Assembly: GCA_003131585.1 (NCBI GenBank)
Contig: PKVW01000020.1
Span: forward strand, 9,848 to 73,847
Direction: 5' to 3'
DNA from: Acidobacteriaceae bacterium
GTDB lineage: Bacteria; Acidobacteriota; Terriglobia; Terriglobales; Acidobacteriaceae
Length of the DNA: 64,000 nt
Shown piece by piece: positions 32,809-63,341 of the stretch; positions within the stretch are counted from its first letter, which is position 1; each line of letters opens with the position of its first letter. The position numbers and the translations under genes were made by a program. The notes beneath the pieces are model-generated. The model did no database searches, was not told where the DNA came from, and saw only the letters and a list, made by a program, of their open reading frames with translations.

Positions 32809-32812
32809 TCCC

Positions 32813-33361: not shown

Positions 33362-33420
33362 GCCAGGCATCGCGCGCAAGTATCGGCCCATTGAATAGGC
33401 ATAGCACTTGCCCGATTATA

Positions 33421-37022: not shown

Positions 37023-37055
37023 GATCCAACACGATTGGTTGATCCAATACGATTG
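37023..37055. repeat. 15-bp direct repeat before the flippase gene
   Basis: GATCCAACACGATTG (37023-37037) and GATCCAATACGATTG (37041-37055) differ at one base and end just before the AAGGAG of the flippase gene. The period is 18 bp. Confidence 0.85.
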
Positions 37056-37064
37056 AAGGAGAAG

Positions 37065-45038: not shown

Positions 45039-46471
45039 AGGGCCGGGTTCAGCTAATTCTTCTCCCTCTGGGAATGACTGCGTTTCTGATGCTGGTTGTC
45101 TTGGCGGAGCGCCGCCCAGCTTTGTTTGCCAACACCACCTACCTCGGCGCGATTTTGGCATTGCAGGTTGCCTTCGTCGGCCTCAGCTATTTTGAACAGG
45201 TATTCTTTCCTCTATTGATGGGAACCTTTCTTTGGGCAGGATCGTCGCTGCCGTTTTATGGAGTTGGGATGTCGCTGCGCTGGCTTTTCTTAGGAGTGGG
45301 CGCGCTGGGTGGCTTCGTCATCTGGATTAAGAGGCCCCGTCCGCGGCATTTTGCATTCTTCCATCTGGTGGCCGCGTTTTGCGTGCTTTCCGCGCTCGTC
45401 TCCGCCGTAGTTTCCGAGATTCCGAGAACGGCGTTGCTTAAAGTATTGAGCCTGTTCTTGCTGTTCCTGTATGCATCCTCGGGAGGACGCGTGGCGATTG
45501 CCGGACGGGAAAACAAGTTTATGAGCGGCCTGGTGCTGGCATGTGAGGTCCTGGTTTACGTCTCGGCAGTGTGTTACTTCGTTTTAGGTTTCGGCGTTTT
45601 TGGCAACCCTAACTCGCTGGGAGCGGTCATCAGCATTGTCGCAGTTCCGATCCTGCTGTGGGCGGCGTTTGTGGCTGAAACGCGAGGTCTGAGGCAGCGC
45701 CGATTTTTCGCCTTGGCGTTGTGTGGTGGCCTGCTTTACCTGGCCAACTCCCGCGCCTCGATTTTGGGTGCGATGGCGGTCGTACTGATGATCACGGTGG
45801 CTTTGCGCCGCCAGCGGCTGCTCGTGCAATGTGCCTTCATTTCTCTCTTCTTTCTTACTGTGATGGCGGTGATTAATCCCTCCCACATGGATGAACTGGT
45901 TTCGTCGTTCACCGGAAGGGTGGTTTACAAGGAACAAGGCACCCACCTCGGCATGTTCGGGTCCCGCCTTTCTCCTTGGGCTGAGACGCTTTCCGTTGTC
46001 AAACGGCACCCTTGGTTCGGCAGTGGTTTTGGCACCAGTGAACTTGGAGACCTTCGGCCTGATCTCGATGCGTCTTCGATCTACACGAAAGAGGGAACAA
46101 ATCGGGAGCACGGCAGCAGCTACCTGGCATTGGCGGAGTATATGGGGCTGCTCGGTGCGATGCCGTTTCTGGTCCTGCTTTTCATGCTGATTCGGGTGGT
46201 GATTCGAATTTATGGGTTTATGCGACGAACCGGAAATCCCTATAACTATTGCATTCCATTCGCGCTGGTTGCGATCGCCGGCCTGATACATGCCTGCTTT
46301 GAAGACTGGTTGTTTGCGGTAGGCTCCTACCTCTGCGTCTTCTTCTGGGTATCGGTTTTTGCGCTGATGGATCTGATTCCCGAGGCCGAGCCGGGAAGAT
46401 CGGCGCCTGGGTTTCACCGGCGATCAGGCGTGGTGGCATCGCCGGCTTCAATGGCCCATTCGCTGCGCTAA
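45035..46471 (+). CDS. O-antigen ligase/polymerase family membrane protein (second copy)
   Basis: A 478-residue protein with about 11-12 membrane helices. The conserved loop WAETLSVVKRHPWFGSGFGT (about 317-336) and the following HGSSYLALAEYMGLLG place it in the Wzy/WaaL family. It overlaps the preceding glycosyltransferase gene by four bases; ATG 45035 is chosen over a start at 45020. Because it lies amid glycosyltransferase genes it is the better candidate for the repeat-unit polymerase, leaving the 18004-19371 protein as a ligase or alternative polymerase. This division is inferred. Confidence 0.85.
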   Translation: MKGRVQLILLPLGMTAFLMLVVLAERRPALFANTTYLGAILALQVAFVGLSYFEQVFFPLLMGTFLWAGSSLPFYGVGMSLRWLFLGVGALGGFVIWIKRPRPRHFAFFHLVAAFCVLSALVSAVVSEIPRTALLKVLSLFLLFLYASSGGRVAIAGRENKFMSGLVLACEVLVYVSAVCYFVLGFGVFGNPNSLGAVISIVAVPILLWAAFVAETRGLRQRRFFALALCGGLLYLANSRASILGAMAVVLMITVALRRQRLLVQCAFISLFFLTVMAVINPSHMDELVSSFTGRVVYKEQGTHLGMFGSRLSPWAETLSVVKRHPWFGSGFGTSELGDLRPDLDASSIYTKEGTNREHGSSYLALAEYMGLLGAMPFLVLLFMLIRVVIRIYGFMRRTGNPYNYCIPFALVAIAGLIHACFEDWLFAVGSYLCVFFWVSVFALMDLIPEAEPGRSAPGFHRRSGVVASPASMAHSLR

Positions 46472-49393: not shown

Positions 49394-51337
49394 ATGTGCG
49401 GAATTTTCGGCATCATCGGCTTTAACGCGCGTGTGCCTGCCGAGGTGCTGGAGCGCGCCACTCAATCGCTCGCTCATCGTGGGCCGGACGATAGCGGTAC
49501 CGTCATTCTGCGCGACTCCGCGCCGGAAGCGGTCGAAATCGGTTTGGGGAATCGCCGCCTCGCAATCCTGGATCTGTCTCCTCTAGGGCATCAGCCCATG
49601 AACGATCCGGCAACCGGCAACTGGATCGTCTATAACGGCGAGGTCTACAACTTCCGCGAAGTTCGCGCGAAATTGGAGCGAGAGGGGCTGCACTTCAGCA
49701 GTCTTTCCGATACGGAGGTGATCCTCAAAGCTTATTCACACTGGGGAGAACAGTGCCTCCATGAGTTTCGCGGGATGTTTGCGTTCGCGATCTGGGATGC
49801 GCCGCGGCACCGCCTGTTCGCGGCCCGCGATCCGATGGGAATCAAGCCGCTCTATTACTGCCATTCGGATCGGTACTTCATGTTTTCTTCCGAGGTCCGG
49901 ACCCTGCTGGGAACCGGGCTTGTGCCGCGCCGCTTAGATCCTGCGGGCCTTGTGAATTATCTGTCCTTTGGATCGCTTTACGACCCCAACACACTAGTGG
50001 AAGGAGTGAATGCGCTTCTGCCCGGGTGCTATCTGACCTGGGAAAAAGGACAGGTGAAACAGGCGCAGTACTGGGATCTGATCGGCCCAACCCTGGTCAA
50101 CTCCGACCTTGTTGAACCTTCCCATCATCAGGCTTGCGATGCCGGCACGGAGAGGCGCGAACTCGAAAGCCAGGTCGCCGAGATGCTCGATGAGTCGGTG
50201 CGCATGCAACTGGTGAGCGATGTGCCGGTTGGAGTGTTTCTTTCGGGCGGCATCGACTCCAGCGCCCTCGTCGGCATTCTGAGCCGAAACGGCAAAAGGC
50301 CGAGCACGTTTTCCATCGTATTTCGCGAGGCGGACTACTCCGAAGCGGAGTATTCCCGCGCTATCGCGCAGCAGTTTCGCACCGACCACCACGAAATCAC
50401 CGTTTCCCAGTCAGACTTCTTTGCGGCGATTGCCCCTGCCATCCACGCGATGGATCTGCCCACCATGGACGGCATCAACACCTACTTCGTGTCGGAGCGA
50501 ACCCGGGCGGCCGGTGTGAAGGTGGCTCTTTCTGGCTTGGGTGGCGACGAAGTATTTGCCGGCTACTCCAGTTTCCGGACGGTGCCGCGGGTGGAACGAT
50601 TTGCCAATGCATGGGAGCACATACCTCGGGCGGTCCGCGCTCCGTTGGCAAATATTTTTGGTGCGATCGCTCCATCCAGTGACCAGAATCGCAAGTTGAC
50701 TGCTCTCGCGCGGAATGACGGAGGAATCGTTCATCCGTATTTTCTTTCGCGCATGCTGTTTACGCCGGAACAACAGAACGAATTGCTGCCTGAGAGGAAG
50801 ACGAACTCCGCGGCTTTCCTGCGTGCTGAAAAATCCTTGAGCGAGAGCTTGAGCCGCGCCCTAAGCCTGGACCCGGTCAACCGTGTTTCCTATCTGGAGA
50901 CGCGGTGTTATATGCTCAACACACTGCTGCGGGACTCGGACTTCATGAGCATGGCGCACGGCCTGGAGGTGCGGGTACCGTTGATCGACCATCGACTGGC
51001 GCGGCGCATCCTGGCCGTGCCGGGATCCTGGAAGCTGGATGCGGAAATTCCTAAGCCTTTGCTGGTCAGGGCGCTCGGCGGACAACTCCCCGACAAGATC
51101 ATCCATCGCAAGAAACAAGGCTTTACGTTGCCGTTCGAGCATTGGCTGCGGGATGCGTTGCGTCCAGTGGTAGAGGAATCGTTGCGCAAGATCGGGGACG
51201 GCGCCCTGGGTTCCGTGATCAATCAACCGGCGGCGCTTCGCGTCTGGGCAGATTTTCTGGAAGGCCGAACTTCTTGGTCTCGCCCGTGGTCGTTGTATGT
51301 GCTGCAATGCTGGTGTCAGCAGCACCTTTCGAGTTGA
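49394..51337 (+). CDS. asnB: Asparagine synthetase-type glutamine amidotransferase (first copy)
   Basis: A 647-residue enzyme with an N-terminal Ntn glutaminase (catalytic Cys2 in MCGIFGIIG, HRGPDDSG, YNGEVYN) and a C-terminal ATP-pyrophosphatase domain with the P-loop LSGGIDSSALVG. The glutaminase makes ammonia that is channelled to an acyl-adenylate. In polysaccharide loci such enzymes usually amidate a sugar carboxylate, as WbpS does in Pseudomonas O-antigens. With a uronic-acid-forming dehydrogenase in the same locus that is a reasonable role here. A general asparagine synthetase role cannot be excluded. Confidence 0.9.
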   Translation: MCGIFGIIGFNARVPAEVLERATQSLAHRGPDDSGTVILRDSAPEAVEIGLGNRRLAILDLSPLGHQPMNDPATGNWIVYNGEVYNFREVRAKLEREGLHFSSLSDTEVILKAYSHWGEQCLHEFRGMFAFAIWDAPRHRLFAARDPMGIKPLYYCHSDRYFMFSSEVRTLLGTGLVPRRLDPAGLVNYLSFGSLYDPNTLVEGVNALLPGCYLTWEKGQVKQAQYWDLIGPTLVNSDLVEPSHHQACDAGTERRELESQVAEMLDESVRMQLVSDVPVGVFLSGGIDSSALVGILSRNGKRPSTFSIVFREADYSEAEYSRAIAQQFRTDHHEITVSQSDFFAAIAPAIHAMDLPTMDGINTYFVSERTRAAGVKVALSGLGGDEVFAGYSSFRTVPRVERFANAWEHIPRAVRAPLANIFGAIAPSSDQNRKLTALARNDGGIVHPYFLSRMLFTPEQQNELLPERKTNSAAFLRAEKSLSESLSRALSLDPVNRVSYLETRCYMLNTLLRDSDFMSMAHGLEVRVPLIDHRLARRILAVPGSWKLDAEIPKPLLVRALGGQLPDKIIHRKKQGFTLPFEHWLRDALRPVVEESLRKIGDGALGSVINQPAALRVWADFLEGRTSWSRPWSLYVLQCWCQQHLSS

Positions 51338-51349
51338 GCGATTGCCGTG

Positions 51350-52252
51350 ATGGAAAAGATTGAAGAAATTGGAAAGAGCGCGAGTGCCGCCTCCGCTGGC
51401 AAACTCCCGGTCAGCGTGATTATTGCGGTGCGCAACGAGGCGAAAAATCTGCGACGATGTTTGCAGGCGCTCAAAAATGTTGGCGAAGTGTACGTAATTG
51501 ACTCTCAGAGCACAGACGACACCGCGGAGATCGCGCGATCCCACGGAGCCCACGTCGTGCAGTTCCACTATCAGGGTGGATGGCCCAAGAAGCGGCAATG
51601 GGCCATGAACACGCTGCCGATTGCGTACGGCTGGATTCTGCTGCTGGATGCCGACGAGGTGCTCACGCCGGAACTCGCCGCAGAAATTCGTTCGGCGATC
51701 CAGAGTCCGGCGATAGACGGGTATTCCGTCCTCCTTCGCATTTGGTTTCTGGGCCGGGTCCTGCGTCATGGAGATGTGGGCTTGTGGAAGCTGTCTTTGT
51801 TTCGCCGGGGCAAGGGACAGTACGAATGCCGCCTGAAAGATCAAGATGTTTCGATGGCCGATATGGAAGTGCATGAACACGTTGTCGTCGAGGGCGCGAC
51901 CGCAAGACTGCGGAATCCGCTGATTCATCACAATGTGGAATCGCTCTCGCGTTATATCCAGAAACACAACGAGTATTCCAACTGGGAGTGCCGCGTGTTG
52001 CTGCAGGGTGGGTACGACGAAGACCTGTCGCCATCGCTTTTGGGCACGCAAGCGCGGCGCCGGCGCTGGTTGAAGCGCACACTCTTTGCCGTTCCGGGCT
52101 CTTCCGTGCTGCTTTTCCTGTATCGTTATGTCTTGCGGTTGGGATTCCTGGATGGGGTACCAGGCCTGATCTACTGCGGTTTCCAGGCGGTTCAGATGTT
52201 TCATACCAAGGCCAAGATCTACGAACTGCAATCGAAGGGAACGGAAGTCTAA
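51350..52252 (+). CDS. Glycosyltransferase family 2 protein (WaaE/KdtX-like)
   Basis: A 300-residue inverting transferase with a GT-A fold. VSVIIAVRNEAKNLRRCLQA is at about 21-40, YVIDSQSTDDTAE follows, and WILLLDADEVLTPEL (about 94-108) holds the DxD-type motif. The C-terminus has a hydrophobic patch that may associate with the membrane (VPGSSVLLFLYRYVLRLGF). It lies between the two asnB-like genes. Confidence 0.88.
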   Translation: MEKIEEIGKSASAASAGKLPVSVIIAVRNEAKNLRRCLQALKNVGEVYVIDSQSTDDTAEIARSHGAHVVQFHYQGGWPKKRQWAMNTLPIAYGWILLLDADEVLTPELAAEIRSAIQSPAIDGYSVLLRIWFLGRVLRHGDVGLWKLSLFRRGKGQYECRLKDQDVSMADMEVHEHVVVEGATARLRNPLIHHNVESLSRYIQKHNEYSNWECRVLLQGGYDEDLSPSLLGTQARRRRWLKRTLFAVPGSSVLLFLYRYVLRLGFLDGVPGLIYCGFQAVQMFHTKAKIYELQSKGTEV

Positions 52253-52278: not shown

Positions 52279-54270
52279 ATGTGTGGGATCGCCGGACTCG
52301 CCAACTGTGGGGACAGGGAAGTGCTGGGACGGATGACGCACGTCCAGGCGCACCGCGGCCCCGACGACTCCGGTCTGTGGGAGCGAAGATTCCCTGACGG
52401 TTCCTACATTGGCCTCGGCAGCCGCCGGCTTGCCATCCTCGATCTTTCGGCCGATGGCCATATGCCGATGTGCAACGAGGACCGCACGGTCTGGATCACG
52501 TACAACGGCGAAATTTACAACTTTGCCGAGCTTCGCCGTGAGCTTCAAGGCAAAGGCCACCACTTTGCCTCCAACACGGATACGGAAGTCGTGATCCACC
52601 TTTACGAACAAGAAGGCGCGGATTGCGTTCATCGGCTCAATGGCATGTTCGCCTTCGCGATCTGCGATCTACGCTCGGGCAGGCCAGAGTTGTTTCTGGC
52701 GCGCGATCATTTTGGAGTCAAACCCTTCTACTACGCTCACCACGGGAGGAAGCTGGCGTTTGCTTCGGAAGTGAAAGCCCTGCTGCATGTGCCGGAGATC
52801 GAGGCGGAGATCGATCTGGAGTCCTTGCATCAGTATCTGACCTTTCTGTGGGTTCCCGATCCCAAGACGATGTTCCGTGGGATCTACAAGCTACCCGCGG
52901 GACATTGCGCGACGTTCCGCGACGGCGAACTCAAAATCCGGCAGTACTGGGACCTGAGCTTTCCCCGCGCGGATGCGAGTTATCCGCGATCCGAAGCGGA
53001 TCTTGCCGACGAGGTTCGTGAGCGCTTTCGGCGTTCGGTGGAAGCGCAGATGGTAAGCGATGTTCCGGTTGGCGCATTTCTCAGCGCCGGGTTGGATTCT
53101 TCCAGCATCGTGGCCATGATGTGCCGGGCGACGAAACAGCCCGTCCGGACTTATACGATTACTTTCCCGCACAAGTATCGCGTCGGCGAGACCACGCTGG
53201 ATGATCCCAATGTGCCGGCGCGACTGGCGCGACAACTGGGCTGCGAGAACCAGCAGATTGTGGTTGAGCCGGATGTGGCCGAGTTGCTGCCTCGCCTGAC
53301 GTGGCACATGGACGAGCCCACTGCGGATCCTGCGATCATCACGGCGTATCTGGTCTGCCGCGAGGCGCGCAAGCAGGCTACTGTGTTGCTCTCCGGCGTC
53401 GGGGGAGACGAGTTGTTTGCCGGATATCGCAAGCATGCCGCGCACCGCTGGGCGCGGGCGTGTCAGAGTTTGCCCAGTGCGCTGCGAACCGGGATCGAGT
53501 CCGGCCTCGGCGCCCTGCCCAGCTTGCGCGGCACGGCCATGAAGGGAAGCGTGCGCTTGGCCAAGAAGATGGCTCGAAGCGCGTCGCTCGATCCTGAGGA
53601 CCGCTTCGTTCGCAACTGCACCTACCTGGATAACGGCCAGAAGATGAGCCTGTATGCGGCGGAGGTTCAGGATCAGCTTCGTGCCTCCGACCCAGCGGTT
53701 CGCCACCATTCCAGCTTCAACGCGGTGCGCGACGCGGACTTTCTGAACCAGATGCTTTACCTCGATACGAAGATCTTCATGGTAAGCCTGAACCTGAACT
53801 ATAACGACAAGATGAGTATGGCATCGTCGGTTGAGGTACGCGTCCCATTTCTCGACCGCGAACTGGCCGAGTTCGCCGCCTGGAACATTCCGCCGGATCT
53901 CAAGCTGAAAGGATTCTTGCGGCCCACTACGAAACACATTTTCCGCAAGGCGATGCGGGACGTTCTGCCTGCCGAAGTATTGCGGCAGCCGAAAGCGGGC
54001 TTCGCCGCTCCGGTGGATTACTGGCTGGCGCACGATTTGCGGGAGATGGTGGACGATCTGCTTTCCGATACAAACATCCGCAAGCGCGGGTTGTTTCGCC
54101 CGGAAGCGGTGCGCCGCTTCGTGGACGAACACCGGAGCGGCGCCGAGGACTGGTCAATGCAAATCTGGCAGTTTCTAACTCTGGAAAACTGGATGCGAAT
54201 TTTCCTCGATGCTGGAGCGCAGCAGAGGACGGAAGAGTTCAGTCAGACACGCGAGGCGGCCACCGCGTGA
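52279..54270 (+). CDS. asnB: Asparagine synthetase-type glutamine amidotransferase (second copy)
   Basis: A 663-residue enzyme with the same two-domain design as the first copy. Cys2 is present (MCGIAGLANCG), as are HRGPDDSGLW and YNGEIYNF. The P-loop reads LSAGLDSSS, with Ala for the second Gly of the usual SGG; this variant occurs in related enzymes and need not abolish activity. GVGGDELFAGY follows. The two copies are clearly diverged and may amidate different sugars. The next gene starts about 46 bases downstream. Confidence 0.9.
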   Translation: MCGIAGLANCGDREVLGRMTHVQAHRGPDDSGLWERRFPDGSYIGLGSRRLAILDLSADGHMPMCNEDRTVWITYNGEIYNFAELRRELQGKGHHFASNTDTEVVIHLYEQEGADCVHRLNGMFAFAICDLRSGRPELFLARDHFGVKPFYYAHHGRKLAFASEVKALLHVPEIEAEIDLESLHQYLTFLWVPDPKTMFRGIYKLPAGHCATFRDGELKIRQYWDLSFPRADASYPRSEADLADEVRERFRRSVEAQMVSDVPVGAFLSAGLDSSSIVAMMCRATKQPVRTYTITFPHKYRVGETTLDDPNVPARLARQLGCENQQIVVEPDVAELLPRLTWHMDEPTADPAIITAYLVCREARKQATVLLSGVGGDELFAGYRKHAAHRWARACQSLPSALRTGIESGLGALPSLRGTAMKGSVRLAKKMARSASLDPEDRFVRNCTYLDNGQKMSLYAAEVQDQLRASDPAVRHHSSFNAVRDADFLNQMLYLDTKIFMVSLNLNYNDKMSMASSVEVRVPFLDRELAEFAAWNIPPDLKLKGFLRPTTKHIFRKAMRDVLPAEVLRQPKAGFAAPVDYWLAHDLREMVDDLLSDTNIRKRGLFRPEAVRRFVDEHRSGAEDWSMQIWQFLTLENWMRIFLDAGAQQRTEEFSQTREAATA

Positions 54271-54316: not shown

Positions 54317-55618
54317 ATGACTGGCTCCGGGGCGGCTTCCAGGGACAATGGCGGCGACAATGGCATGAAGGGTCAAATCGCCAGGGCGCTGACCGAAGCG
54401 ACGGGCTTGCTGCGCGGACCGCAGCGCGTGGTTCCGTTGATCCGGAAACTCGTCTCCGACAAGCTGCGGATCGCCTTCGAGCAACGCCATCTTTATTCGT
54501 ACACAACCACCAGGCGAGCCAGCGGAGATGCGCTGAACTTATTGCTGCGCTGGATTCTCGACGCGCAGCGCCCCGATGGCGGCATTGCCGCCTACTACAG
54601 CCTGCTCACGGGATATTCGGAATCCTACCCGGAGGTCACCGGCTACATCGTTCCGACGCTGTTCGATATTGCGCGCGCGGCCGGCGACGACGGCGCGGCT
54701 GTCGCCGCGAAACGCGCCACCCGATGGCTGCTTTCGCTGCAAATGCCAACCGGAGCCTTTCCAGGAGGGTTGCACGGCGGCGAAGCGCAGCCGTCAGTGT
54801 TCAATACCGGCCAAATCCTGCAAGGATTGGTTCGCGCTCACCGGGAGACGAACCGTCCGGAGATTCTGCAAGCGGCCGTCGCCGCCGGCAATTGGCTGGT
54901 CAACAGGCAGCAAGCAGACGGATCGTGGGCCGGACCTGGTGCCTATCAAGACGTAGCTCACACTTACTACAGCATGGTTGCGTGGGCGCTGGCTGAATTG
55001 TCCGAGCGTACTGCGGATCATCACGATCACGGCGTGGGCTACGGCCGGGCGGCAGAACGAAATCTGGATTGGGTGTTGTCACACGTCCGGCCCAGCGGCT
55101 GGATCGATGGCATCAACCTGCGAGGCCATCCTAACTATCTGCACTTCATTGCTTACGCGCTTCAGGGCGTTCTGGAATGCGCCATTCTGCGGAGGCGGAG
55201 CGATGCCATCCAGGTAGTTGCGAAGTCGGCTTGGGTACTGCTGCGAAAGTTCGAGACCAACAAATGGTTGCTGGGCGCGTATGAGCCGGATTTCAAAGGC
55301 GGCCGGCGCTTCACTTGTCTGACGGGGAACGCGCAGATGTCGTGCGTCTGGTTGCGTTTGTTTGAGGTGACGGACGACCTGCGTTATCTCAATGCCGCGC
55401 TCAAGATGAATGAGATGCTGAAGCAATTGATCCCGGCGCGCGGGCGGCGAGGCATCGCCGGCGGAGTGAGCGGATCCTACCCGGTCTGGGGCCGCTATCA
55501 GCCGCTGCGCTACATCAGTTGGGGATGCAAGTTCTTCGCGGACGCTCTCCTGTTAGAGCAGCGCCTGACGCGGTCGTTCGCGGCATCGGCACCCGAGGCA
55601 TTGCCATGCGCATCGTAG
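54317..55618 (+). CDS. Soluble helical-toroid protein of unknown function
   Basis: A ~433-residue protein built of repeated helical hairpins of the (alpha/alpha)-toroid type (e.g. LLLRWILDAQRPDGGIAAYY; AGNWLVNRQQADGSWAGPGAY), as in prenyltransferase/squalene-cyclase and some glycoside hydrolase folds. It has no QW cluster, no DxDD cyclase motif and no signal peptide, so terpene cyclisation is not supported. A role in processing the polymer or its lipid carrier is inferred from context. The start is uncertain: ATG 54317 and ATG 54365 are both possible; the frame is open further upstream over the asnB gene. Confidence 0.65.
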   Translation: MTGSGAASRDNGGDNGMKGQIARALTEATGLLRGPQRVVPLIRKLVSDKLRIAFEQRHLYSYTTTRRASGDALNLLLRWILDAQRPDGGIAAYYSLLTGYSESYPEVTGYIVPTLFDIARAAGDDGAAVAAKRATRWLLSLQMPTGAFPGGLHGGEAQPSVFNTGQILQGLVRAHRETNRPEILQAAVAAGNWLVNRQQADGSWAGPGAYQDVAHTYYSMVAWALAELSERTADHHDHGVGYGRAAERNLDWVLSHVRPSGWIDGINLRGHPNYLHFIAYALQGVLECAILRRRSDAIQVVAKSAWVLLRKFETNKWLLGAYEPDFKGGRRFTCLTGNAQMSCVWLRLFEVTDDLRYLNAALKMNEMLKQLIPARGRRGIAGGVSGSYPVWGRYQPLRYISWGCKFFADALLLEQRLTRSFAASAPEALPCAS

Positions 55619-56433
55619 TTCTGTGCTCCAGCGTACACAGCGAAACCGCGTGTGCCATGGCAGTGCGTGTGGCCGAGTTGGGCTATGTTCCCGCCGGTGC
55701 CCTTGCTCTTCCCACTCTCGACCGCGGAACTTTGCGGCGCAAGCTTGGACAGTGGGGTTTGCGGGACGTTGCGCGCTACGCGCGCGCGAAACTGATTCCG
55801 CGTCACGGCGATGGGCAGGCGCGCGTGATTAATCACTACCTCCAGCCTCTGCTCAAACACGCGGACGGGGTCTTCCGCAGCCTGCGGGAGGCGGCGGCAT
55901 TGTACGGCTTCCCGGTTGCGGTCTGCAAGGACCAGAATGCGCCGGATTCGATTGCGCATCTCAAAGAGTGGTCGCCCGACTTGATCATTTTCACCGGCGG
56001 CAACATTTTGCGCAAGCAGTTGCTGGACGTGCCCCGTCTCGGAGTCCTCAATGTACACCTCGGCTTGCTGCCGGAAATTCGGGGTATGAGCAGTCCGGAG
56101 TGGTCGTTGCTGAACCACGTTCCGGTCGGCATCACCGTTCATTACATGGATGCGGGCATCGATACCGGGCCGGTTCTTCAAAGATGTGAATTTCCCGAGG
56201 CAGCCCGGTGCGAATCGCTCAGCGACCTGCGCAACCGGCTGGTCGCCTTCGGCGTCGAGAAAGTCGGAGAGGTGGTTGCCGGTCTCGATCATGGCACGAT
56301 CTCCGCCACACAACAATCCGATCTCGATAAGGATAATCAATTCTTCGTCATGCATGAATGGCTCCAGGCGCGGGCGGCCGAACGCCTTACGAAGAGCCGC
56401 CTGGCAACCCTGGCGGGGACGGTGAATGGCTAA
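55606..56433 (+). CDS. Formyltransferase-family protein (amino-sugar N-formyltransferase type)
   Basis: A 275-residue protein of the formyl_trans_N fold. The active-site loop LGVLNVHLGLLPEIRG (about 145-160) and the MDAGIDTGPVLQ motif with the catalytic Asp are present, as in methionyl-tRNA, WbtJ- and VioF-like formyltransferases. A sugar amine is the likely acceptor. The start codon is 13 bases inside the preceding gene, preceded by GAGG; the last eight bases overlap the heparinase-like gene. Confidence 0.82.
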   Translation: MRIVVLCSSVHSETACAMAVRVAELGYVPAGALALPTLDRGTLRRKLGQWGLRDVARYARAKLIPRHGDGQARVINHYLQPLLKHADGVFRSLREAAALYGFPVAVCKDQNAPDSIAHLKEWSPDLIIFTGGNILRKQLLDVPRLGVLNVHLGLLPEIRGMSSPEWSLLNHVPVGITVHYMDAGIDTGPVLQRCEFPEAARCESLSDLRNRLVAFGVEKVGEVVAGLDHGTISATQQSDLDKDNQFFVMHEWLQARAAERLTKSRLATLAGTVNG

Positions 56434-58636
56434 GCCGCTGAGTAAGATCGGAACCCTGTTGCAGGTCGGCCGCACCTTCGGGATGCGCGACGGCATGCTC
56501 CGCCTGGAATACGAACTCCAGCGCGGCAGCGGCCTGATGTCGTGGAGGATGCGATCCGTGCAGGGCTGGGATTCCTGGGACCTGAAGCGGATTGCACCCG
56601 GCGTCCCGGCGGAAGAGATGCGGGCTGCGCGCCGCGACGGCACGCGACGATTTTTCTTCACCGATGCGCAGGCATTGGGAAAGAGTCTCAGAAAGATTGT
56701 GGAGATCGACGGAGAAGAGTCTGTTCTCGCCGAAGCGCAGAGCATTCTTGCAGGCAACCTGCCATTCTTCGGCCAACTGTCGTTCGCGTGCGAATTCCCG
56801 CCGCGATGGTTCCGGAATCCGGTCACCGGCCAGAGTGTCTCACCGGGGCAGCCGTGGACCCAGATGCGTTTTGCCTCACCCGCCTACGGCGACCTGAAAT
56901 TTATCCTCGAGCCCTCCAGGTTCCTGTTTGCCTACCCATTGGTTCGGGCTTACGCTCTCAGCGGCGACGAGCGATTTCCGCAGGCCTTCTGGGACTCGGT
57001 TGAGGAATGGGCCCGCCACAACCCGCCAATGGCCGGTCCGCTATGGATTTGCGGGCAAGAGTGCTCGTTGCGCATTTTGGCCTGGTCGTTCGCGCTGCAT
57101 GCGTTCGTTAATTCGCCGTCGACAACCAACGAGCGCGTCGCTTTGCTTGTCTCCATGATCGCCGCTCATGCCTGGCGCGCCGCGCAGACCCTCGGTTATG
57201 CCCGCTCCCAGCGCAGCAATCACTTGATCAGCGAGGCCGTTGGTCTTTGGACGGCGGGCACGCTCTATCCAGAATTGCGAGAGGCGCAAGTTTGGCAGAA
57301 CCTTGGCGCGCATCTGTTGCACGAAGCGGTCCTCGACCAGATCACACCGGAGGGCGTTTCGCAGCAGCACTCTTTCAACTACCAGCGCATGATTCTGCAT
57401 CTGCTGCTGTGGACGCTGCGCCTCGCCGACGTTCACCGCGCTCCGCTTCACGAGGACATTCGCGCGCGCACGCAGACCGCTTTTGACTTTATGCGCGCCT
57501 GGGTCGATCCGGTGAGCGGCTGTGTGCCTAACTACGGTTCTGACGATGGCAGCATGATCCTCCCCCTCGCTCCGGGTGCGTACCGCGATTTTCGTCCGTT
57601 GCTGCAGTTGGGTGCTGCAGTTCTGAAGCTCCCGGCGCTCAAGCCAGGGCCTTGGGACGAGGCCGCGCTGTGGTTCGGCGTCAAGCCTGCGGTCGTGGAG
57701 AACGCTGCGCCGGCTTCGCTTCCGTCCGCCGAGAGCGGATACTTCCGTCTGGGGGATGAGACTTCCTGGGCGATGGTTCGCGCGGGGCGATACACTCGCC
57801 GGCCTTTTCAGGCAGATCAGTTGCAGATGGATTTGTGGTGGCAAGGCATCAATCTGGCCCGCGATGCCGGAACATATCTCTACAATGGCGCTATACCGTG
57901 GAATAATGGACTCGCGGGGACTGCCGTTCATAACACGGTCACGGTCGATCGTCGCGATCAGATGCGCCGCGCCGGCCGCTTTCTCTGGGTCGACTGGGCG
58001 CAAGCGTCAGGCCGGTTGTATTCTTCGCCCGCTCGGGCTTGCGCCGACCGTTTTGAGGGCGAGCATGATGGCTACAGACGTTTTGGCGTGAGGCACCATC
58101 GCATGGTTCAGTGGCTGGCTGGCGCCGGCTGGGTCATCGTGGATGACATACAGGGAGCCGCAGTGCACGACTTGCGCTTGCATTGGCTGGTGGCTGATTT
58201 GCCGTATGAGGTTTCTGATTCGCCTTTTGAAGTTGTGTTCGCGTCGGGGCAGTCGCGGATTCGCTGGACTATTCTTGCCAGCATTCCGGGAAGTTCGGCA
58301 GTCGTCCGGACAGGGAAACAAGCAGGGAGCGCGACAGGGAAGAGTTCCGCGCTTGAGATCACAGCCGCGGACACGCAGTTGCTCGGTTGGGAGTCGCCCA
58401 CGTATGGTGATCTTCGACCGGCGGTTTCCCTGGTGTACCAGACTCGATCGCAGTTGCCGGTTCGATTCGTAACCGCAATTCTCACGGACGAACGATGCAG
58501 GCTTGAATCGGAAGACGGCCGGTTAGTCGTTTTGCGGGATGAATCCGCGGTCTACCGGGTGAATCTTTCGGCGAAAGCGCCGCATACCGCTGAAGGGCAG
58601 CCACTCGCAGTAAGCGTGCAAAGAGAAACCGCATGA
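56426..58636 (+). CDS. Heparinase II/III-like protein without signal peptide
   Basis: A 736-residue protein with an alpha-toroid N-terminal domain (about 120-430) and a C-terminal beta-sandwich of the heparinase II/III type (from about 450; e.g. ESGYFRLGDETSWAMVRAG, GTAVHNTVTVDRRDQ, VDDIQGAAVHDLRLHWL). Members are polysaccharide lyases acting on uronic-acid glycans, but usually secreted. Here no signal peptide is seen, so it may act in the cytosol or be exported otherwise. Both ends overlap neighbours (8 and 4 bases), giving strong coupling to the formyltransferase and dehydrogenase. Turnover of the uronic-acid polymer or editing of repeat units is inferred. Confidence 0.82.
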   Translation: MAKPLSKIGTLLQVGRTFGMRDGMLRLEYELQRGSGLMSWRMRSVQGWDSWDLKRIAPGVPAEEMRAARRDGTRRFFFTDAQALGKSLRKIVEIDGEESVLAEAQSILAGNLPFFGQLSFACEFPPRWFRNPVTGQSVSPGQPWTQMRFASPAYGDLKFILEPSRFLFAYPLVRAYALSGDERFPQAFWDSVEEWARHNPPMAGPLWICGQECSLRILAWSFALHAFVNSPSTTNERVALLVSMIAAHAWRAAQTLGYARSQRSNHLISEAVGLWTAGTLYPELREAQVWQNLGAHLLHEAVLDQITPEGVSQQHSFNYQRMILHLLLWTLRLADVHRAPLHEDIRARTQTAFDFMRAWVDPVSGCVPNYGSDDGSMILPLAPGAYRDFRPLLQLGAAVLKLPALKPGPWDEAALWFGVKPAVVENAAPASLPSAESGYFRLGDETSWAMVRAGRYTRRPFQADQLQMDLWWQGINLARDAGTYLYNGAIPWNNGLAGTAVHNTVTVDRRDQMRRAGRFLWVDWAQASGRLYSSPARACADRFEGEHDGYRRFGVRHHRMVQWLAGAGWVIVDDIQGAAVHDLRLHWLVADLPYEVSDSPFEVVFASGQSRIRWTILASIPGSSAVVRTGKQAGSATGKSSALEITAADTQLLGWESPTYGDLRPAVSLVYQTRSQLPVRFVTAILTDERCRLESEDGRLVVLRDESAVYRVNLSAKAPHTAEGQPLAVSVQRETA

Positions 58637-60921
58637 AACAAGTTTTCCAGGATGCCCGCAGCGCTGAGATCAACGTGGCGGAGGTTCCTGCCCCGAAATT
58701 GCTGGCGGGCTGCGTGCTTGTTCGCACCGCTGCTTCCCTCGTTTCCGCGGGCACGGAGCGGGCTTCCTCTGAGTTCGCGAGCAAGAACTTGCTGCAGAAA
58801 GCGAGAATGCGGCCCGATCTTGTGCGCGAAGTTCTTAGCAAGATCGGCCGTGACGGACTGGTGGCGACGGTGTCTGCCGTCCGCAGCCGTCTCGACCAAC
58901 CCAGCGCCTTGGGGTATAGCAGTGCCGGAACCGTCGTCGCCGTCGGCGAAGGCGTTGCCGATATCAACCCCGGAGATCGTGTGGCATGTGCCGGCGCCGG
59001 TTATGCCGTGCACGCCGAGTTTGCCTGTGTTCCCCGCCTGCTGGTCGCGCGGATTCCTTCCGAAGCCGTGAGCTTTGACGAAGCTGCCTTCACCACGGTC
59101 GGTTCGGTGGCGCTTCATGGCGTGCGGACAGCCGACGTCAAGCTGGGCGAAATTGTGGCCGTGATCGGCCTGGGCTTGCTTGGTCAACTGATGGTGCAGA
59201 TCCTTAAGGCGGCCGGCTGCTGCGTGCTGGGAATGGACATCTCCACCGAGCGGGCGGACCTGGCTTTGCGCTCGGGAGCGGATGCGGTGAGCGCTTCGTC
59301 TTCCGGCTTTCAGGATTTATGCCTGCAGCATTCTGGCCGGCATGGCGCGGACGCAGTCCTGATCGCGGCGCAAACCGCCAGCAACGATCCAGTGAATCTC
59401 GCGGGAGCGGTGGCGCGGAATCGCGCCGTAGTGGTAGCGGTGGGAACGGTTGCGATGGATATCCCGCGAAGATTCTTCTACGAAAAAGAACTCGACTTTC
59501 GCGTCTCCCGCTCCTACGGGCCCGGCCGCTATGACTCGGCCTACGAGCAGAAGGGAATCGACTATCCGATTGGCTACGTCCGCTGGACGGAAACGCGGAA
59601 CATGGAAGCTTTTCTGAAGCTTCTCGCGGACCGCAAACTTGATTTGCCTCCGTTGATGACCCATCGTTTCCCCATCGCGCGGGCGCACTCCGCCTATGAT
59701 TTGATCGCGGGGAAAACGCACGAGGCATTTCTGGGTGTATTGATCGCGTACCCGGAGGATGCGGACGATACCCGCCACGTAAACCTGGCGGCTCCCGACC
59801 GGCTTGTCCGGCCTGTCGCAAGTCGGCAGGCCATTCAGATCGGTCTTCTTGGCGCGGGCACCTTCGCCACCGGCACGCTCCTGCCTGCGATCAAGCGAGT
59901 TGGTGGGGTAGAGATGGTCGTGGCTGGCGCGGCTAATGGTTCTCACGCGCGGCATGCCGCCGATAAATTCGGATTTCGTTCCTGCGCCACCGACGAGCGG
60001 GAGATTCTTAACAATCCCGCGGTCAATACGGTTGTCATTGCCACACGCCATCATCTGCATGCAGGGCAGGTGATAGCCGCCCTTAATTCCGGCAAGCATG
60101 TTTTCTGCGAAAAGCCTCTCTGCCTTAATGCAGCGGAGCTCAACAGAATCGTTGCGGCACACGACGATCAAACTCATAACGATCAAACTCACGAAGGCCG
60201 GCCCTCCCAGCGGCGCCTTCTCATGGTCGGTTTCAACCGCCGGTTCGCCCCGTTGGCGGTTCGACTCAAGAGTTTTCTGCAGGAAGTGCGGGAGCCTCTG
60301 GCGCTTCACTACCGCGTGAATGCAGGTTTTCTTCCAGCGGATCACTGGCTGAACGATCCGCAGCAGGGCGGCGGCCGCATCCTCGGAGAGGTCTGCCATT
60401 TTGTGGACTTCCTGTGCTTCCTGGCGGACTCTGCCCCCGTGGAAGTTGAGACCCGCAGCCTGCCGAATCCGGGTCAATACAGCAACGACAACATCGTGTG
60501 TTCGATGCGCTTTGCCGATGGTTCCCAAGGCACAATCACCTACCTCGCAAACGGGGATAAGTCCTTTTCAAAGGAAAGACTCGAAGTTTTCGGCGGCGGC
60601 AGCGTGGCCGTGCTGGAAGACTTTCGGCGGCTGGAACTTGTCCGCGGCGGAAAGAATCGCGTAGTTCGCTCGCTCCTGCGCCAGGACAAAGGGCATCGCG
60701 GCGAATGGGAGGCCTTCATCACGGCGATTCAAGCCGGCGCGGAGTCGCCGATCCCGTTCCGCGAAGTGGTGAGCCCGATGCTGGCGACGTTCGCTCTGGA
60801 GGAGTCACGGTGTTTGGGGCAACCCGTCGCCGTGCCCGTCGCCGTCGTGCCCGTCGCCGTCAAAGACCTTCGCAGCGACGATCGCGCTCCCGACGCAAGC
60901 GGTTTCGACCGGGCGTCTTGA
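58633..60921 (+). CDS. Bi-domain oxidoreductase: MDR dehydrogenase fused to Gfo/Idh/MocA dehydrogenase
   Basis: A 762-residue protein. Residues about 1-370 are a medium-chain dehydrogenase-like domain (ALGYSSAGTVVAVGEGVADI; VAVIGLGLLGQLMVQ for NAD). From about 398 a Gfo/Idh/MocA domain follows (IQIGLLGAGTFATGTLLPAI; FCEKPLCLN; later GGGRILGEVCHFVDFLCFLA). Such fusions are known in polysaccharide clusters next to heparinase-like genes; the substrate is unknown. Tandem repeats at 60164-60193 (DQTH units) and 60823-60861 (PVAV units) lie inside the frame. The ATG overlaps the preceding stop (ATGA). Confidence 0.88.
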   Translation: MKQVFQDARSAEINVAEVPAPKLLAGCVLVRTAASLVSAGTERASSEFASKNLLQKARMRPDLVREVLSKIGRDGLVATVSAVRSRLDQPSALGYSSAGTVVAVGEGVADINPGDRVACAGAGYAVHAEFACVPRLLVARIPSEAVSFDEAAFTTVGSVALHGVRTADVKLGEIVAVIGLGLLGQLMVQILKAAGCCVLGMDISTERADLALRSGADAVSASSSGFQDLCLQHSGRHGADAVLIAAQTASNDPVNLAGAVARNRAVVVAVGTVAMDIPRRFFYEKELDFRVSRSYGPGRYDSAYEQKGIDYPIGYVRWTETRNMEAFLKLLADRKLDLPPLMTHRFPIARAHSAYDLIAGKTHEAFLGVLIAYPEDADDTRHVNLAAPDRLVRPVASRQAIQIGLLGAGTFATGTLLPAIKRVGGVEMVVAGAANGSHARHAADKFGFRSCATDEREILNNPAVNTVVIATRHHLHAGQVIAALNSGKHVFCEKPLCLNAAELNRIVAAHDDQTHNDQTHEGRPSQRRLLMVGFNRRFAPLAVRLKSFLQEVREPLALHYRVNAGFLPADHWLNDPQQGGGRILGEVCHFVDFLCFLADSAPVEVETRSLPNPGQYSNDNIVCSMRFADGSQGTITYLANGDKSFSKERLEVFGGGSVAVLEDFRRLELVRGGKNRVVRSLLRQDKGHRGEWEAFITAIQAGAESPIPFREVVSPMLATFALEESRCLGQPVAVPVAVVPVAVKDLRSDDRAPDASGFDRAS
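60164..60193. repeat. In-frame 15-bp tandem duplication in the bi-domain oxidoreductase
   Basis: ACGATCAAACTCATA (60164-60178) is followed by ACGATCAAACTCACG (60179-60193), encoding a repeated DQTH unit in a loop of the Gfo/Idh/MocA domain. Confidence 0.88.
60823..60861. repeat. In-frame CCCGTCGCCGT tandem repeats near the end of the oxidoreductase gene
   Basis: Three units begin at 60823, 60835 and 60850 with lengths 12, 15 and 12 bases, encoding a PVAV(V) run near the protein C-terminus, outside the conserved domain. Confidence 0.88.
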
Positions 60922-60956
60922 ATAATAGGTTTCCTGAATCATTGTTCGCCGTCTCC

Positions 60957-62240
60957 ATGAAGATTCTTTACGTCTCGCAATACTTTCCACCGGAGATGGG
61001 TGCGCCGGCTGCGCGGGCGGGCGAGTTGTCGCGGCATTGGGCGGGCGCAGGGCACGAAGTGACCGTGCTCACAGGGTTCCCCAATCATCCTACCGGCGTG
61101 GTGCCGCCCGAGTATCGCGGCAAGTTCCGGCGCCTGGTGGTTCGCGAGCAAACTGACGGTGTAAAGGTGGTCCGCACCTGGCTGCTTCCTTTTCCTAACC
61201 GGAAGGCGTACGAGCGAATGTTCAACTACAGTTCGTTTTGCGCATCGGCGGCCAGTACAGGTCTTTTTTTGTCGCGGCCTGACGTGGTGATTGCCACGTC
61301 CCCGCAGTTGCTGGTTGGACTCTCCGGCTGGTGGCTGGCCCGTTGCAAGCGCGTGCCTTTTGTCTTCGAGGTGCGCGATCTTTGGCCCGAATCGCTGGCC
61401 GCGGTCGGCATGGGCGACGGCAATTCGCTGTTGCACCGGGCTCTGGCGAAGATCGCCGGTTTCTTGTACCGCCATTCCAATCGGGTGGTGGTGGTCACGC
61501 CCGCTTTTGAGGATTACCTGGTGGAACACTGGCGCGTGCCGCGGGAAAAGATTTCAGTGATCGAGAATGGGGTGGAGACCCACCTCTTCGCTCCAGAACC
61601 ATTTACCGGAGAAACAGGAACCGGCCTGAGAAGGGAATTGGGCGTGGAGGGAAAGTTTGTTGTCTCCTACATCGGCACCATGGGAATGGCGCACGGGCTG
61701 GAAACAATTATTGCCGCCGCCGCCCAGTTGCGGGATACGAATCCCGGCATTGTATTTCTGATGCTGGGAGAAGGCGCCGAAAAAGCGCGCATCGTCGCGC
61801 TGGGGCGGGAGCGCGGTCTGAACAATCTGCGATTTGTCGAGCAGCAGCCTCGCGAAAAAATTCCCGCCTACATCCGCGCGTCGGATGTTTGCCTCGTTCC
61901 GCTCAAGAAAACCGACTTGTTCAAGACCGTCATCCCTACCAAGATGTTGGAATTCATGTCGTGCGCTCGCCCGGTCATCCTCGGGGTAGACGGGCAGGCG
62001 CGCGCGATTCTGGAGGAAGCCCGTGGCGGCCTCGTGATCGAACCGGAGAATTCCGGCGCTCTGGTGAATGCTGTTCTTTATCTGGCGGCGAATCGGGAAA
62101 TGGCTCGCGTACTGGGACAGAACGGCAGGGAATACATCGTGCGCAAGTTTTCCCGCCCCCAGACCGCGGAAAAATACCTTCGCGTGCTCGAACGCCTGTT
62201 GCAGTTGCCGGAACGGCCTGGCACAGAACTTGCCGCGTAA
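60957..62240 (+). CDS. Glycosyltransferase family 4 protein (WbuB-like)
   Basis: A 427-residue GT-B transferase. The N-terminal KILYVSQYFPPEMGAPAARA and TVLTGFPNHPTGVVPPEYRG, and the C-terminal VIPTKMLEFMSCARPVILGV, match the WbuB branch that adds N-acetylfucosamine-type sugars. Family members often act early on the lipid carrier. The ATG at 60957 gives the canonical start; the frame runs upstream to 60705, but that portion overlaps the oxidoreductase gene and is Arg-rich shadow sequence. It is the last plus-strand gene of the operon and converges on the SLBB gene 21 bases away. Confidence 0.88.
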   Translation: MKILYVSQYFPPEMGAPAARAGELSRHWAGAGHEVTVLTGFPNHPTGVVPPEYRGKFRRLVVREQTDGVKVVRTWLLPFPNRKAYERMFNYSSFCASAASTGLFLSRPDVVIATSPQLLVGLSGWWLARCKRVPFVFEVRDLWPESLAAVGMGDGNSLLHRALAKIAGFLYRHSNRVVVVTPAFEDYLVEHWRVPREKISVIENGVETHLFAPEPFTGETGTGLRRELGVEGKFVVSYIGTMGMAHGLETIIAAAAQLRDTNPGIVFLMLGEGAEKARIVALGRERGLNNLRFVEQQPREKIPAYIRASDVCLVPLKKTDLFKTVIPTKMLEFMSCARPVILGVDGQARAILEEARGGLVIEPENSGALVNAVLYLAANREMARVLGQNGREYIVRKFSRPQTAEKYLRVLERLLQLPERPGTELAA

Positions 62241-62261: not shown

Positions 62262-63341
62262 TCACGGATGGGCGGCGATGACTGCCAGTCCCACTGCCGC
62301 GGATATCGCCGCGGTAAAGCCTGCTCCCGCCGCGACCCGGACTCCGCTGAGCGGCACGAAAAGGATGTCATCGGCCTGCAGGCTGATGTCGGGAGCCTTC
62401 GCTTCCAGCATTTTCTTCAACGGAACTCGCGTTTCGGTCATTCCGGTCGGGCCCTTGCGGATGATGCAGGTTCCGCTCATCTTTGCGGTGTGATTCGTCC
62501 CGCCCGCGAGCGCAAGCGCCTGCAGCACGGTCAAGCTGCCATTGTCCACAAGCAAACCGGTGGGACGGCCCACATCCCCCACTACGTAGATGACCGGCGC
62601 CCGGGGTACTGTAATGGTGTCTCCCGGCAGGATCTCGATATTATCCTGCAAATCGTCAGCCAGATTTCTGGGCAGGTTCACGGTGATCGGCTCGGCCTGA
62701 TCGCGCTGCCGGATGATGCTTACCTTGCGTCCTGCGCTAGCCGTGAATCCCCCCGCCGCCGAGATCATATCGTACAACTTGCGGTCCCCAAGGGCCGGGT
62801 AGATGCCGGGTCTATTTACGTCGCCGAGGATCGTCACTCCCTGCGAAGCGGATTCGTCGAGGAAGATGGTAACGTGAGGATTGCGGACAAAGCCCCCGTC
62901 CTCGAGCCGCTTCTCGATCAAAGCCTGCGCCTCTTCCACCGTCAGGTCGCCCACGTGCACGTAGTCAATGAGCGGAAGGTAAACATCTCCTGAATTGCCG
63001 ATTCTCGCTTTGGTGGCCAATTCCGGTACGTTGTAAACGCCGACTTCAAGCAAATCGCCGGTACCCAGCCTCAGCAGTGACGAATTTCCATTGGCCGTGG
63101 CCACCGAACCTGTCGAAGAGGCGCTCTGGGAAGCCTTCGCAGCCTGAGCATTGTTGGGTACGGTTCCGGCCGCGGCTTCAGAGAGCGGTTGCGCCGCGGG
63201 CAGCGCTGGCACCGTGCTTTGCGCGGGGGAGGATGTCGCCGTTCCCTGCGCCCAAATCTTGAACTCCGAACTGCAAAATAAAACGAGGGAGAACGCGAGC
63301 AGACGGCGGCTGCGGGCAAAACTGAATCTGCCGAACTCCAT
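62262..63341 (-). CDS. Polysaccharide export protein (Wza-like, SLBB domains)
   Basis: A 359-residue exported protein. A signal peptide (about 1-31) and an Ala/Ser-rich linker precede a Poly_export domain (about 92-165; GTGDLLEVGVYNVPEL, YVHVGDLTVEEA). Two SLBB domains follow (about 168-330; GDVNRPGIYPALGDRKLYDM and GDVGRPTGLLVDNGSLTVLQ). A C-terminal hydrophobic stretch (about 338-355) could insert in the membrane. Such proteins form the outer-membrane channel with a Wzc partner, here the gene at 20702-23062. No lipobox cysteine is evident at the expected cleavage point. Confidence 0.9.
   Translation of the reverse strand: MEFGRFSFARSRRLLAFSLVLFCSSEFKIWAQGTATSSPAQSTVPALPAAQPLSEAAAGTVPNNAQAAKASQSASSTGSVATANGNSSLLRLGTGDLLEVGVYNVPELATKARIGNSGDVYLPLIDYVHVGDLTVEEAQALIEKRLEDGGFVRNPHVTIFLDESASQGVTILGDVNRPGIYPALGDRKLYDMISAAGGFTASAGRKVSIIRQRDQAEPITVNLPRNLADDLQDNIEILPGDTITVPRAPVIYVVGDVGRPTGLLVDNGSLTVLQALALAGGTNHTAKMSGTCIIRKGPTGMTETRVPLKKMLEAKAPDISLQADDILFVPLSGVRVAAGAGFTAAISAAVGLAVIAAHP

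Follow-up and report, generated by a model that had tools for sequence, protein, structure and literature searches.

Heparinase-fold lyases and dermatan sulfate epimerase both act at C5 of uronic acids. Human dermatan sulfate epimerase 1 (DS-epi1) carries out polymer-level uronate chemistry from a lyase-like active site, and those who solved its structure suggest that very small alterations can convert a lyase into an epimerase (PMC8006597; this and the other articles cited here are drawn on in excerpt). According to the excerpt of PMC13308652, the sole bacterial glucuronyl C5-epimerase to have been identified is the Bermanella enzyme. In Vibrio vulnificus, in-frame deletion of VV0357, encoding a zinc-binding dehydrogenase, or of its neighbour VV0358, encoding a heparinase-III-like protein, abolishes the capsule, and complementation brings back the wild-type phenotypes, except growth in serum (PMC6037467); by analogy, these deletions support a synthetic role for such a pair. 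Here we consider a stretch of 64,000 nucleotides from an Acidobacteriaceae genome (contig PKVW01000020.1 of assembly GCA_003131585.1, positions 9,848 to 73,847; hereafter the window), in which four overlapping genes encode a toroid protein (TOR), a formyltransferase (FMT), a leaderless heparinase-II/III-like protein (HEP) and a bi-domain oxidoreductase (BID).

Overall, we favour a reading in which HEP, perhaps together with TOR, edits a uronic acid of a lipid-linked unit in the cytoplasm, most likely by C5-epimerisation, and we hold it tentatively, as quite possible and somewhat short of probable. To say that HEP works like an epimerase is, with the same reserve, to state a hypothesis and not to assign it to an epimerase family. 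What brings us to this reading is an exchange between clusters: the slot filled by TOR, FMT and HEP in the window is filled in sister clusters by a cassette with a GlcE-type C5-epimerase. The gene arrangements are best explained if TOR, FMT and HEP form a cassette and HEP is repeatedly partnered by BID.

Cassettes A and B interchange in one slot

In relatives within the genus the window's genes recur in the order asnB1-GT2-asnB2-TOR-FMT-HEP-BID-GT4-wza, which we call cluster A. A search of 44 other genomes of the genus gave long HEP matches in 16, with identities of 62-81%, and partial ones in two more. In each of the 13 named loci (L032-L044) TOR, FMT and HEP follow one another without interruption; BID lies 3' of HEP in 12 of these and 5' of TOR in L044, asnB2 lies 5' of TOR in all nine loci that show it, and GT4 and wza follow downstream in all 11 loci that reach that far. 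A further locus, L045, has a HEP of 41% identity without the cluster A neighbours.

The sister arrangement, cluster B, has the order asnB1-GT2-asnB2-BID-CARB-PROP-C5EPI-GT4-wza. It occurs elsewhere in the family, and some congeners of the window genome have it too. CARB belongs to the carbamoyltransferases (PF02543/PF16861); for PROP, neither Pfam nor NCBIfam gave a match. C5EPI matches PF06662, the D-glucuronyl C5-epimerase C-terminus, at 173.8 bits (cut-off 23.3), and human GLCE (6hzz) at 4.5e-41. Its residues E202, N213, Y260 and Y275 are invariant in 15 rows and correspond to GLCE Glu499, Asn510, Tyr560 and Tyr578, and Y203 (Tyr500 in GLCE) is kept in 13 of the 15, the residues being placed on 6hzz by alignment and spacing from the GLCE residue list in the excerpt of PMC13308652. 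CARB is full-length in nine loci, and in L113 both CARB and PROP are reduced to remnants; in another six loci PROP and C5EPI occur together with GT4, and the stretch contains no BID. In L151 and L143 (where BID lies in two frames), C5EPI directly follows BID with neither CARB nor PROP, a minimal cassette B, and because it is present there C5EPI is the constant gene of the cassette. PROP stands beside C5EPI in 15 of the 23 C5EPI loci (L155:10540-11706, minus strand, and 14 further full-length relatives). Matches to PF06662 above cut-off occur in 4 of the 297 genomes of the phylum sample and in 51 of 300 family genomes; there is none in the window genome (G000), and the C5EPI model finds nothing in the window. 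Of seven hits to plasmid relatives of C5EPI three were opened, and only that from Priestia has polysaccharide-type surroundings, which include a nucleotide-sugar dehydrogenase.

Within the stretches examined, the two cassettes do not meet. C5EPI is in none of the 15 A-side loci (the window and L032-L045), and HEP, TOR and FMT are in none of the 23 C5EPI loci, even with a broad HEP model, for which 19 rows were used, seven of these being stop-to-stop reading frames. Neither the window nor L001-L045 gave any match to CARB or PROP. Their surroundings are nearly collinear: upstream of asnB1, 10 of 12 stretches (4/5 A, 6/7 B) match GT_42695, GT_43887, GT_46684 and GT_48075 of the window in nearly the same order, and the sulfatase-superfamily gene of the window is matched in seven of the 12. 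The A stretch without a match, L168, missed the cluster, and L173, on the B side, reached only GT2 and asnB1; GT_46684 lies ahead of GT_43887 and wzy in L164 and the B stretches and behind them in the window.

One genome, G041, has both HEP and C5EPI, the latter at a separate locus (L148) and of 35% identity. On the G041 contig L044 the order is BID-[TOR-FMT-HEP]-GT4-wza, so that cassette A stands precisely where B would stand, and in the BID tree the L044 sequence clusters with L140 and L147, B rows from the same genus (support 100/99). The starred branches of that tree force at least two A/B changes, as does the GT4 tree, and the simplest reading of these trees would be that cassettes A and B have replaced each other more than once.

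The earlier note on this DNA, made from the letters of the window, had treated the four genes as a single module and looked to its conservation across phyla; here it went too far, as the full set was seen only in this genus, and what was seen beyond it, in four phyla, is the HEP-BID pair. Beyond the genus, TOR is present in 14 of the genomes sampled; 12 such TOR loci were scanned with the genus models, and no FMT or HEP turned up in any; conversely, TOR was not found in the 13 scanned outside-genus loci with HEP and BID, so we rejected a cross-phylum four-gene module. In plasmids of Sphingobium, Streptomyces and Parabacteroides, BID (its relatives there are named bi-domain-containing oxidoreductase) adjoins HEP in five of the seven records with a full-length BID, two of the five, from Streptomyces, being judged from coordinates only; the other two, from Thalassospira and Streptomyces HUAS 15-9, lack this pairing. 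HEP adjoins a nucleotide-sugar dehydrogenase and a GT4 gene in Shinella, Rhizobium and Deinococcus, and a nucleotide-sugar dehydrogenase is present in all eight HEP-bearing plasmid loci that were opened. In the 297 acidobacterial genomes BID was found in 55 and HEP in 49; the distance between them is at most 10 kb in 13 of these 55 and at most 1 kb in seven, including the window genome and one congener. At most three candidates were scored per genome, which makes absences soft, and closer scanning added five more BID-HEP neighbours (G604, G644, G610, G630, G595). A further 20 BID loci were chosen for their BID score among those that had shown no HEP inside 10 kb, and in four of them (G644, G610, G630 and G595) a broader model did place HEP next to BID; another set of loci was chosen largely for the presence of HEP or a strong BID. 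Because B has C5EPI as its sole constant gene, and the companion of BID elsewhere is HEP and not TOR, HEP is most likely the counterpart of the C5EPI epimerase, as far as gene neighbourhoods can tell.

The heparinase-like protein and its overlapping neighbours

The earlier note had described four genes following an asnB gene and overlapping by 13 (TOR/FMT), 8 (FMT/HEP) and 4 (HEP/BID) bases, and all of these reading frames and overlaps were confirmed, with asnB2 directly upstream. The 13-nt overlap recurs in 12 of 13 tabulated loci, the window included (L043 has 10 nt), the 8-nt overlap in 8 of 13 and the 4-nt overlap in 9 of 12; the tabulation leaves out L037, where TOR is broken, and the FMT/HEP and HEP/BID distances depend on starts that were set by script in the relatives. 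The overlaps exceed chance. Position 54365 is an alternative start for TOR, and the residues ahead of it are unconserved.

A few frames are broken in clusters that are otherwise intact: TOR is split over two frames in L037 (1-877), BID stops after 69 aa in L036 (near 12275), and a stop lies within the HEP frame of L007. Either metagenome assembly error or decay could account for these. The window genome has a second HEP homologue, about 28-30% identical (L055, G000:C44:13001-33000), adjoining an opposite-strand nucleotide-sugar dehydrogenase and lying near two asnB genes, and HEP-asnB neighbourhoods of this kind recur in other genomes of the class.

In a Pfam scan (E <= 0.001) HEP matches Hepar_II_III_N and Hepar_II_III_C only, both above cut-off; the DUF4962 domain of dermatan sulfate epimerase, named in the excerpt of PMC8006597, is not among the matches at that threshold. 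Against the HepC equivalog model HEP reaches 67.3 bits, far short of the cut-off of 700. The top Foldseek match of the HEP model is 5jmd, a heparinase III, and re-alignment gives Z 20.8 with the PL17 alginate lyase 4ok2, Z 20.7 with heparinase III 4fnv, and Z 18.6 (rmsd 4.1 over 545 residues) with human dermatan sulfate epimerase 6hzn; the toroid and beta-sandwich fold that the model has in common with 6hzn occurs in lyases too, and is hence no diagnostic of the epimerase. Asn265, Tyr319 and His502, which we take to be the catalytic positions of the heparinase III family, are invariant in 14 HEP rows and align with the Asn, Tyr and His of 4fnv and 5jmd; the triad is kept in 18 of 19 diverse rows, the exception being the row from Deinococcus.

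The absence of a signal peptide from HEP, and the doubt this casts on a secreted degradative role, had been noted before, and both points held up. No in-frame start codon lies further upstream, and the top 15-residue Kyte-Doolittle mean in the first 60 residues is 0.57, as against 1.88 for the secreted Bacteroides HepC and 1.53 for the wza product of the window; no hydrophobic leader is seen in HEP or in 11 diverse relatives with a set start (range -0.58 to 1.06). The measure is crude, and only its low values carry information: BID, with no obvious leader, gives 1.95, and FMT 1.31. The start of the Sphingobium CFD-2 protein, taken as annotated, is possibly too late. With these 12 proteins leaderless and the neighbours in clusters A and B synthetic, we judge a secreted degradative heparinase unlikely.

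Proposed editing of a lipid-linked unit, and other explanations

How might such a protein serve synthesis? Consider the four genes as part of a Wzx/Wzy-type exopolysaccharide pathway. Inside the cytoplasm, HEP would target a uronic acid in the lipid-linked repeat unit, with Asn265 set against the carboxylate and Tyr319 and His502 serving as acid and base; it would take the C5 proton and return it from the opposite face, leaving the unit epimerised and uncut, as in a conversion of D-GlcA to L-IdoA or of D-ManNAcA to L-GulNAcA. BID would supply or condition the target sugar by NAD(P)-dependent oxidation or reduction, FMT would formylate an amino sugar, and TOR would bind the same oligosaccharide or help to edit it. 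Being leaderless and encoded in a Wzx/Wzy cluster, such an enzyme would encounter the lipid-linked unit prior to its export, which is also the case for Agl32 in Halobacterium (PMC13308652). It is because lyase and epimerase chemistry are close, and because HEP is leaderless in such a cluster, that we propose epimerisation at this stage. The earlier note had suggested that the genes edit or build a uronic-acid unit inside the cell, and that part of it is now the best-supported reading, right in direction and in part supported: leaderless relatives in several phyla, the nucleotide-sugar dehydrogenase of the plasmid loci, the GlcE-type sister cluster and the Vibrio capsule phenotype (PMC6037467) narrow it down to C5-epimerisation of the lipid-linked unit or some related step there, and a natural swap now links it to a known epimerase family.

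At the same time, a number of points weigh against epimerisation by HEP. The triad of HEP is that of the lyases, and residues cannot separate an epimerase from a lyase; the model, itself of middling confidence (pLDDT 74.3), places HEP nearer to heparinase III 4fnv than to dermatan sulfate epimerase, and HEP has His502-Asn-Thr504 in place of the DS-epi1 metal motif His450-x-His452 given in the excerpt of PMC8006597. The Vibrio authors, for their part, propose a lyase-type role (PMC6037467). Cassettes A and B have three genes each, so that TOR instead of HEP could be the counterpart of C5EPI, and the polymers of the two clusters may simply be different: most of the assembly line appears common to both, yet the polymers need not be identical, because alongside the four glycosyltransferase genes in 10 of 12 upstream stretches the window's wzy is matched in six (1 A, 5 B) and its wzx in five. 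At the level of genomes the exclusion of C5EPI and window-type HEP within the genus is only modestly significant (both in 1 of 21 genomes, window-type HEP only in 6, C5EPI only in 9, neither in 5; one-sided Fisher p 0.043, counting HEP at >=53% identity, including the partial G029 and scoring a weak sub-cut-off PF06662 match in G002 as absent). The placing of L044 could come from exchange of BID or GT4 alone instead of the cassette. Finally, BID has other partners besides HEP and C5EPI, because 16 of the 20 further BID loci have neither nearby even with broad models, some of these stretches being cut by contig ends.

If HEP were a true lyase, cytoplasmic or membrane-side, it might clear stalled or mis-built lipid-linked units, with TOR acting on the resulting unsaturated ends as unsaturated glucuronyl hydrolase does after heparinases in degradative pathways. 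The kept heparinase III triad would fit, and so would the best fold match of the TOR model (AlphaFold2, pLDDT 71.7), the heparin-specific unsaturated glucuronyl hydrolase 3wiw at Z 30.8. That match is, however, tied with cellobiose 2-epimerase 3wkf (Z 30.4), leaving the predicted fold of TOR like that of the unsaturated glucuronyl hydrolase / N-acylglucosamine 2-epimerase superfamily as a whole, and the TOR profile has no match with four GH88 (PF07470) proteins; the swap with a GlcE-type epimerase and the capsule loss in Vibrio (PMC6037467) also fit synthesis better than proofreading. We consider a lyase of this kind unlikely. The same fold neighbours bear on a different division of labour, in which TOR is the C5-epimerase of cassette A and HEP has some other role. 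The archaeal epimerase Agl32 is a single alpha-helical domain of an N-acylglucosamine 2-epimerase-related fold whose nearest folds are cellobiose 2-epimerase, D-mannose isomerase and GlcNAc 2-epimerase (PMC13308652), and the same are among the neighbours of TOR (3wkf, then 5x32 at Z 28.6 and 1fp3 at Z 27.3). The only two plasmid relatives of TOR are haloarchaeal, 39-40% identical, in polysaccharide-type loci near sulfatase-like and nucleotide-sugar dehydrogenase genes, and the TOR and C5EPI profiles have in common a 76-column stretch (probability 85.7). Comparison of the HEP and C5EPI profiles found no link, and PHROGs yielded nothing of use. Nonetheless, the likeness of TOR to Agl32 is one of fold neighbours, the 76 columns are short and may be a toroid repeat likeness, and TOR, not found in the 13 outside-genus HEP-BID loci scanned, is hence not a constant partner; to us a TOR epimerase seems rather improbable.

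Polysaccharide loci often exchange genes, and the slot could be a hot spot for such exchange, with cassettes A and B adding different decorations (formyl versus carbamoyl, among others) to a similar backbone and having no step in common. FMT and CARB are both group-transfer enzymes, and wzy and wzx are unmatched in some stretches. Against this, C5EPI stays in L151 and L143 where CARB and PROP are gone, HEP like C5EPI accompanies BID in loci without TOR, and HEP and C5EPI occur together in no examined locus; we regard unrelated decorations as the least probable of these explanations, and distinctly unlikely.

Editing by HEP lends itself to a more general statement, to which we give less credence and which we put forward as possible and on balance doubtful: that HEP represents a bacterial C5-epimerase with the fold of heparinases, functionally a counterpart of animal dermatan sulfate epimerase, and in this acidobacterial family trades places with a GlcE-type epimerase in one polysaccharide pathway, and that the leaderless heparinase-like proteins of bacterial and archaeal capsule and exopolysaccharide loci, annotated as lyases, are largely synthetic editors. 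Were this true, the annotation 'alginate lyase / heparinase II/III family protein' would be a misreading in polysaccharide synthesis loci, HEP-type enzymes would be candidate makers of L-iduronic- and L-guluronic-type sugars in bacteria, and both animal solutions to glycosaminoglycan synthesis would compete for one slot. The A/B swap offers a direct genetic test by cross-complementation and a source of enzymes for glycosaminoglycan-like polymers, and it is relevant to the evolution of lyase and epimerase chemistry within a single fold. A limited search of the open-licence literature found no proposal of an epimerase role for leaderless heparinase-like proteins, which is weak evidence of novelty.

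The polysaccharide cluster and comparison with known systems

The window genome comprises 3.93 Mb in 75 contigs, and its nearest named relatives are acidobacterial metagenome assemblies, including Candidatus Sulfotelmatobacter. TOR-FMT-HEP-BID is the terminal part of a large polysaccharide cluster with several glycosyltransferases, the features of which are collected in the table.

Table. Features of the polysaccharide cluster, by position in the window
Feature	Positions	Strand	Basis
TOR, (alpha/alpha)6-toroid protein without leader, 433 aa	54317-55618	+	Weak Pfam toroid matches only; AlphaFold2/Z-score comparison
FMT, formyltransferase, 275 aa	55606-56433	+	Formyl_trans_N 55.7 bits (cut-off 26.1)
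HEP, heparinase-II/III-like, leaderless, 736 aa	56426-58636	+	Hepar_II_III_N 82.2 bits (cut-off 22), Hepar_II_III_C 98.1 bits (cut-off 24)
BID, bi-domain oxidoreductase, 762 aa	58633-60921	+	Pfam ADH half and GFO_IDH_MocA half
asnB2, glutamine-dependent amidotransferase, directly 5' of TOR	52279-54270	+	TIGR01536 488.8 bits (cut-off 267.1)
GT2, family 2 glycosyltransferase, present in clusters A and B	51347-52252	+	Domain search
asnB1, glutamine-dependent amidotransferase	49394-51337	+	TIGR01536 449.2 bits
GT4, family 4 glycosyltransferase, end of slot in clusters A and B	60951-62240	+	Domain search
wza-like polysaccharide export protein	62262-63341	-	Poly_export and SLBB
wzy-like polymerase/ligase	45020-46471	+	Wzy_C 52.1 bits
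wzx-like flippase	36951-38633	+	Polysacc_synt_3 76.9 bits
Sulfatase-superfamily gene without C/S-x-P-S/A-R signature	41189-42694	+	Domain search and motif inspection
Nucleotide-sugar dehydrogenase, possible uronic acid source	14906-16336	-	TIGR03026 424 bits (cut-off 189.8)
Pseudaminic-acid gene set: PseB, PseC, PseG, PseI	24964-34512	+	Each above its NCBIfam cut-off
CTP_transf_3 cytidylyltransferase domain fused to aldo/keto reductase domain, inside the pseudaminic-acid set	27307-29010	+	

The nucleotide-sugar dehydrogenase scores above the general subfamily cut-off and below every specific one, and therefore GlcA and ManNAcA are both possible products. Because PseB, PseC, PseG and PseI pass their cut-offs, the polymer probably contains a pseudaminic-acid-type sugar. 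N149, H151 and D186 of FMT, presumably the Asn-x-His...Asp motif of formyltransferases, are invariant in 13 rows. FMT matches the formyltransferase PseJ among others, and it could formylate a pseudaminic-acid-type sugar instead of another. L182 (1406-5919, plus strand), which comes from a different family in the phylum, has a formyltransferase-like gene (59 bits) some 1.3 kb ahead of BID, separated from it by a single reading frame, and the 7.2-kb contig has no HEP or TOR. We take zinc ligands and an EKP motif as the reference motifs of the two halves of BID: by inspection, its ADH-like half is without the usual Cys/His zinc ligands, and its Gfo/Idh/MocA half has the EKP motif and His589. Assignment of asnB1 and asnB2 as XrtA/PEP-CTERM amidotransferases was rejected (TIGR03108 446.9 and 548.4 bits, cut-off 816.9).

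The sulfatase-superfamily gene has a PTY(Y/F)-type stretch in common with the sulfatase-like proteins near TOR in Halobellus and Haladaptatus. On a plasmid of the archaeon Haladaptatus (L082:10835-15095) the order is sugar dehydrogenase, GT4, sulfatase-like, HEP-like and TOR-like, a sulfatase-like/heparinase-like/TOR-like grouping that is partly common to the acidobacterial cluster, across domains of life; in Halobellus the sulfatase-like gene adjoins the TOR-like gene, with an alginate-lyase-family gene and a GT4 gene about 14 kb off. In Halobacterium, sulfatase-like proteins serve as sulfotransferases for a glycan that contains IdoA (PMC11980604), so the sulfatase-superfamily gene may, by analogy, encode a transferase too.

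Set beside the systems described so far, HEP has both Hepar_II_III domains, the fold and the Asn/Tyr/His positions of heparinase III / PL12 (5jmd, 4fnv, 4mmh), and differs in being leaderless by a crude measure, in an identity of 16-19%, and in standing among glycosyltransferases and amidotransferases and not in a degradative locus. With human dermatan sulfate epimerase 1 (6hzn) it has the modelled toroid and beta-sandwich fold in common; DS-epi1, in contrast, is an animal Golgi enzyme with a His-x-His metal motif that HEP lacks, and 6hzn is not among the PDB sequence matches of HEP at E <= 1. GlcE-type C5-epimerases (PF06662; human 6hzz and the Bermanella enzyme, PMC13308652) occupy the same slot in the sister cluster and yet belong to a protein family other than that of HEP, one without a match in the window genome. 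Agl32, the archaeal D-glucuronyl C5-epimerase of N-glycosylation, has fold neighbours like those of TOR and acts on a lipid-linked glycan (PMC13308652). The V. vulnificus pair comes from another phylum, and VV0357, with two predicted transmembrane helices (PMC6037467), is likened to BID as a dehydrogenase only; nonetheless, it is likewise a dehydrogenase and heparinase-III-like pair near a capsule locus, and both of its members are essential for the capsule.

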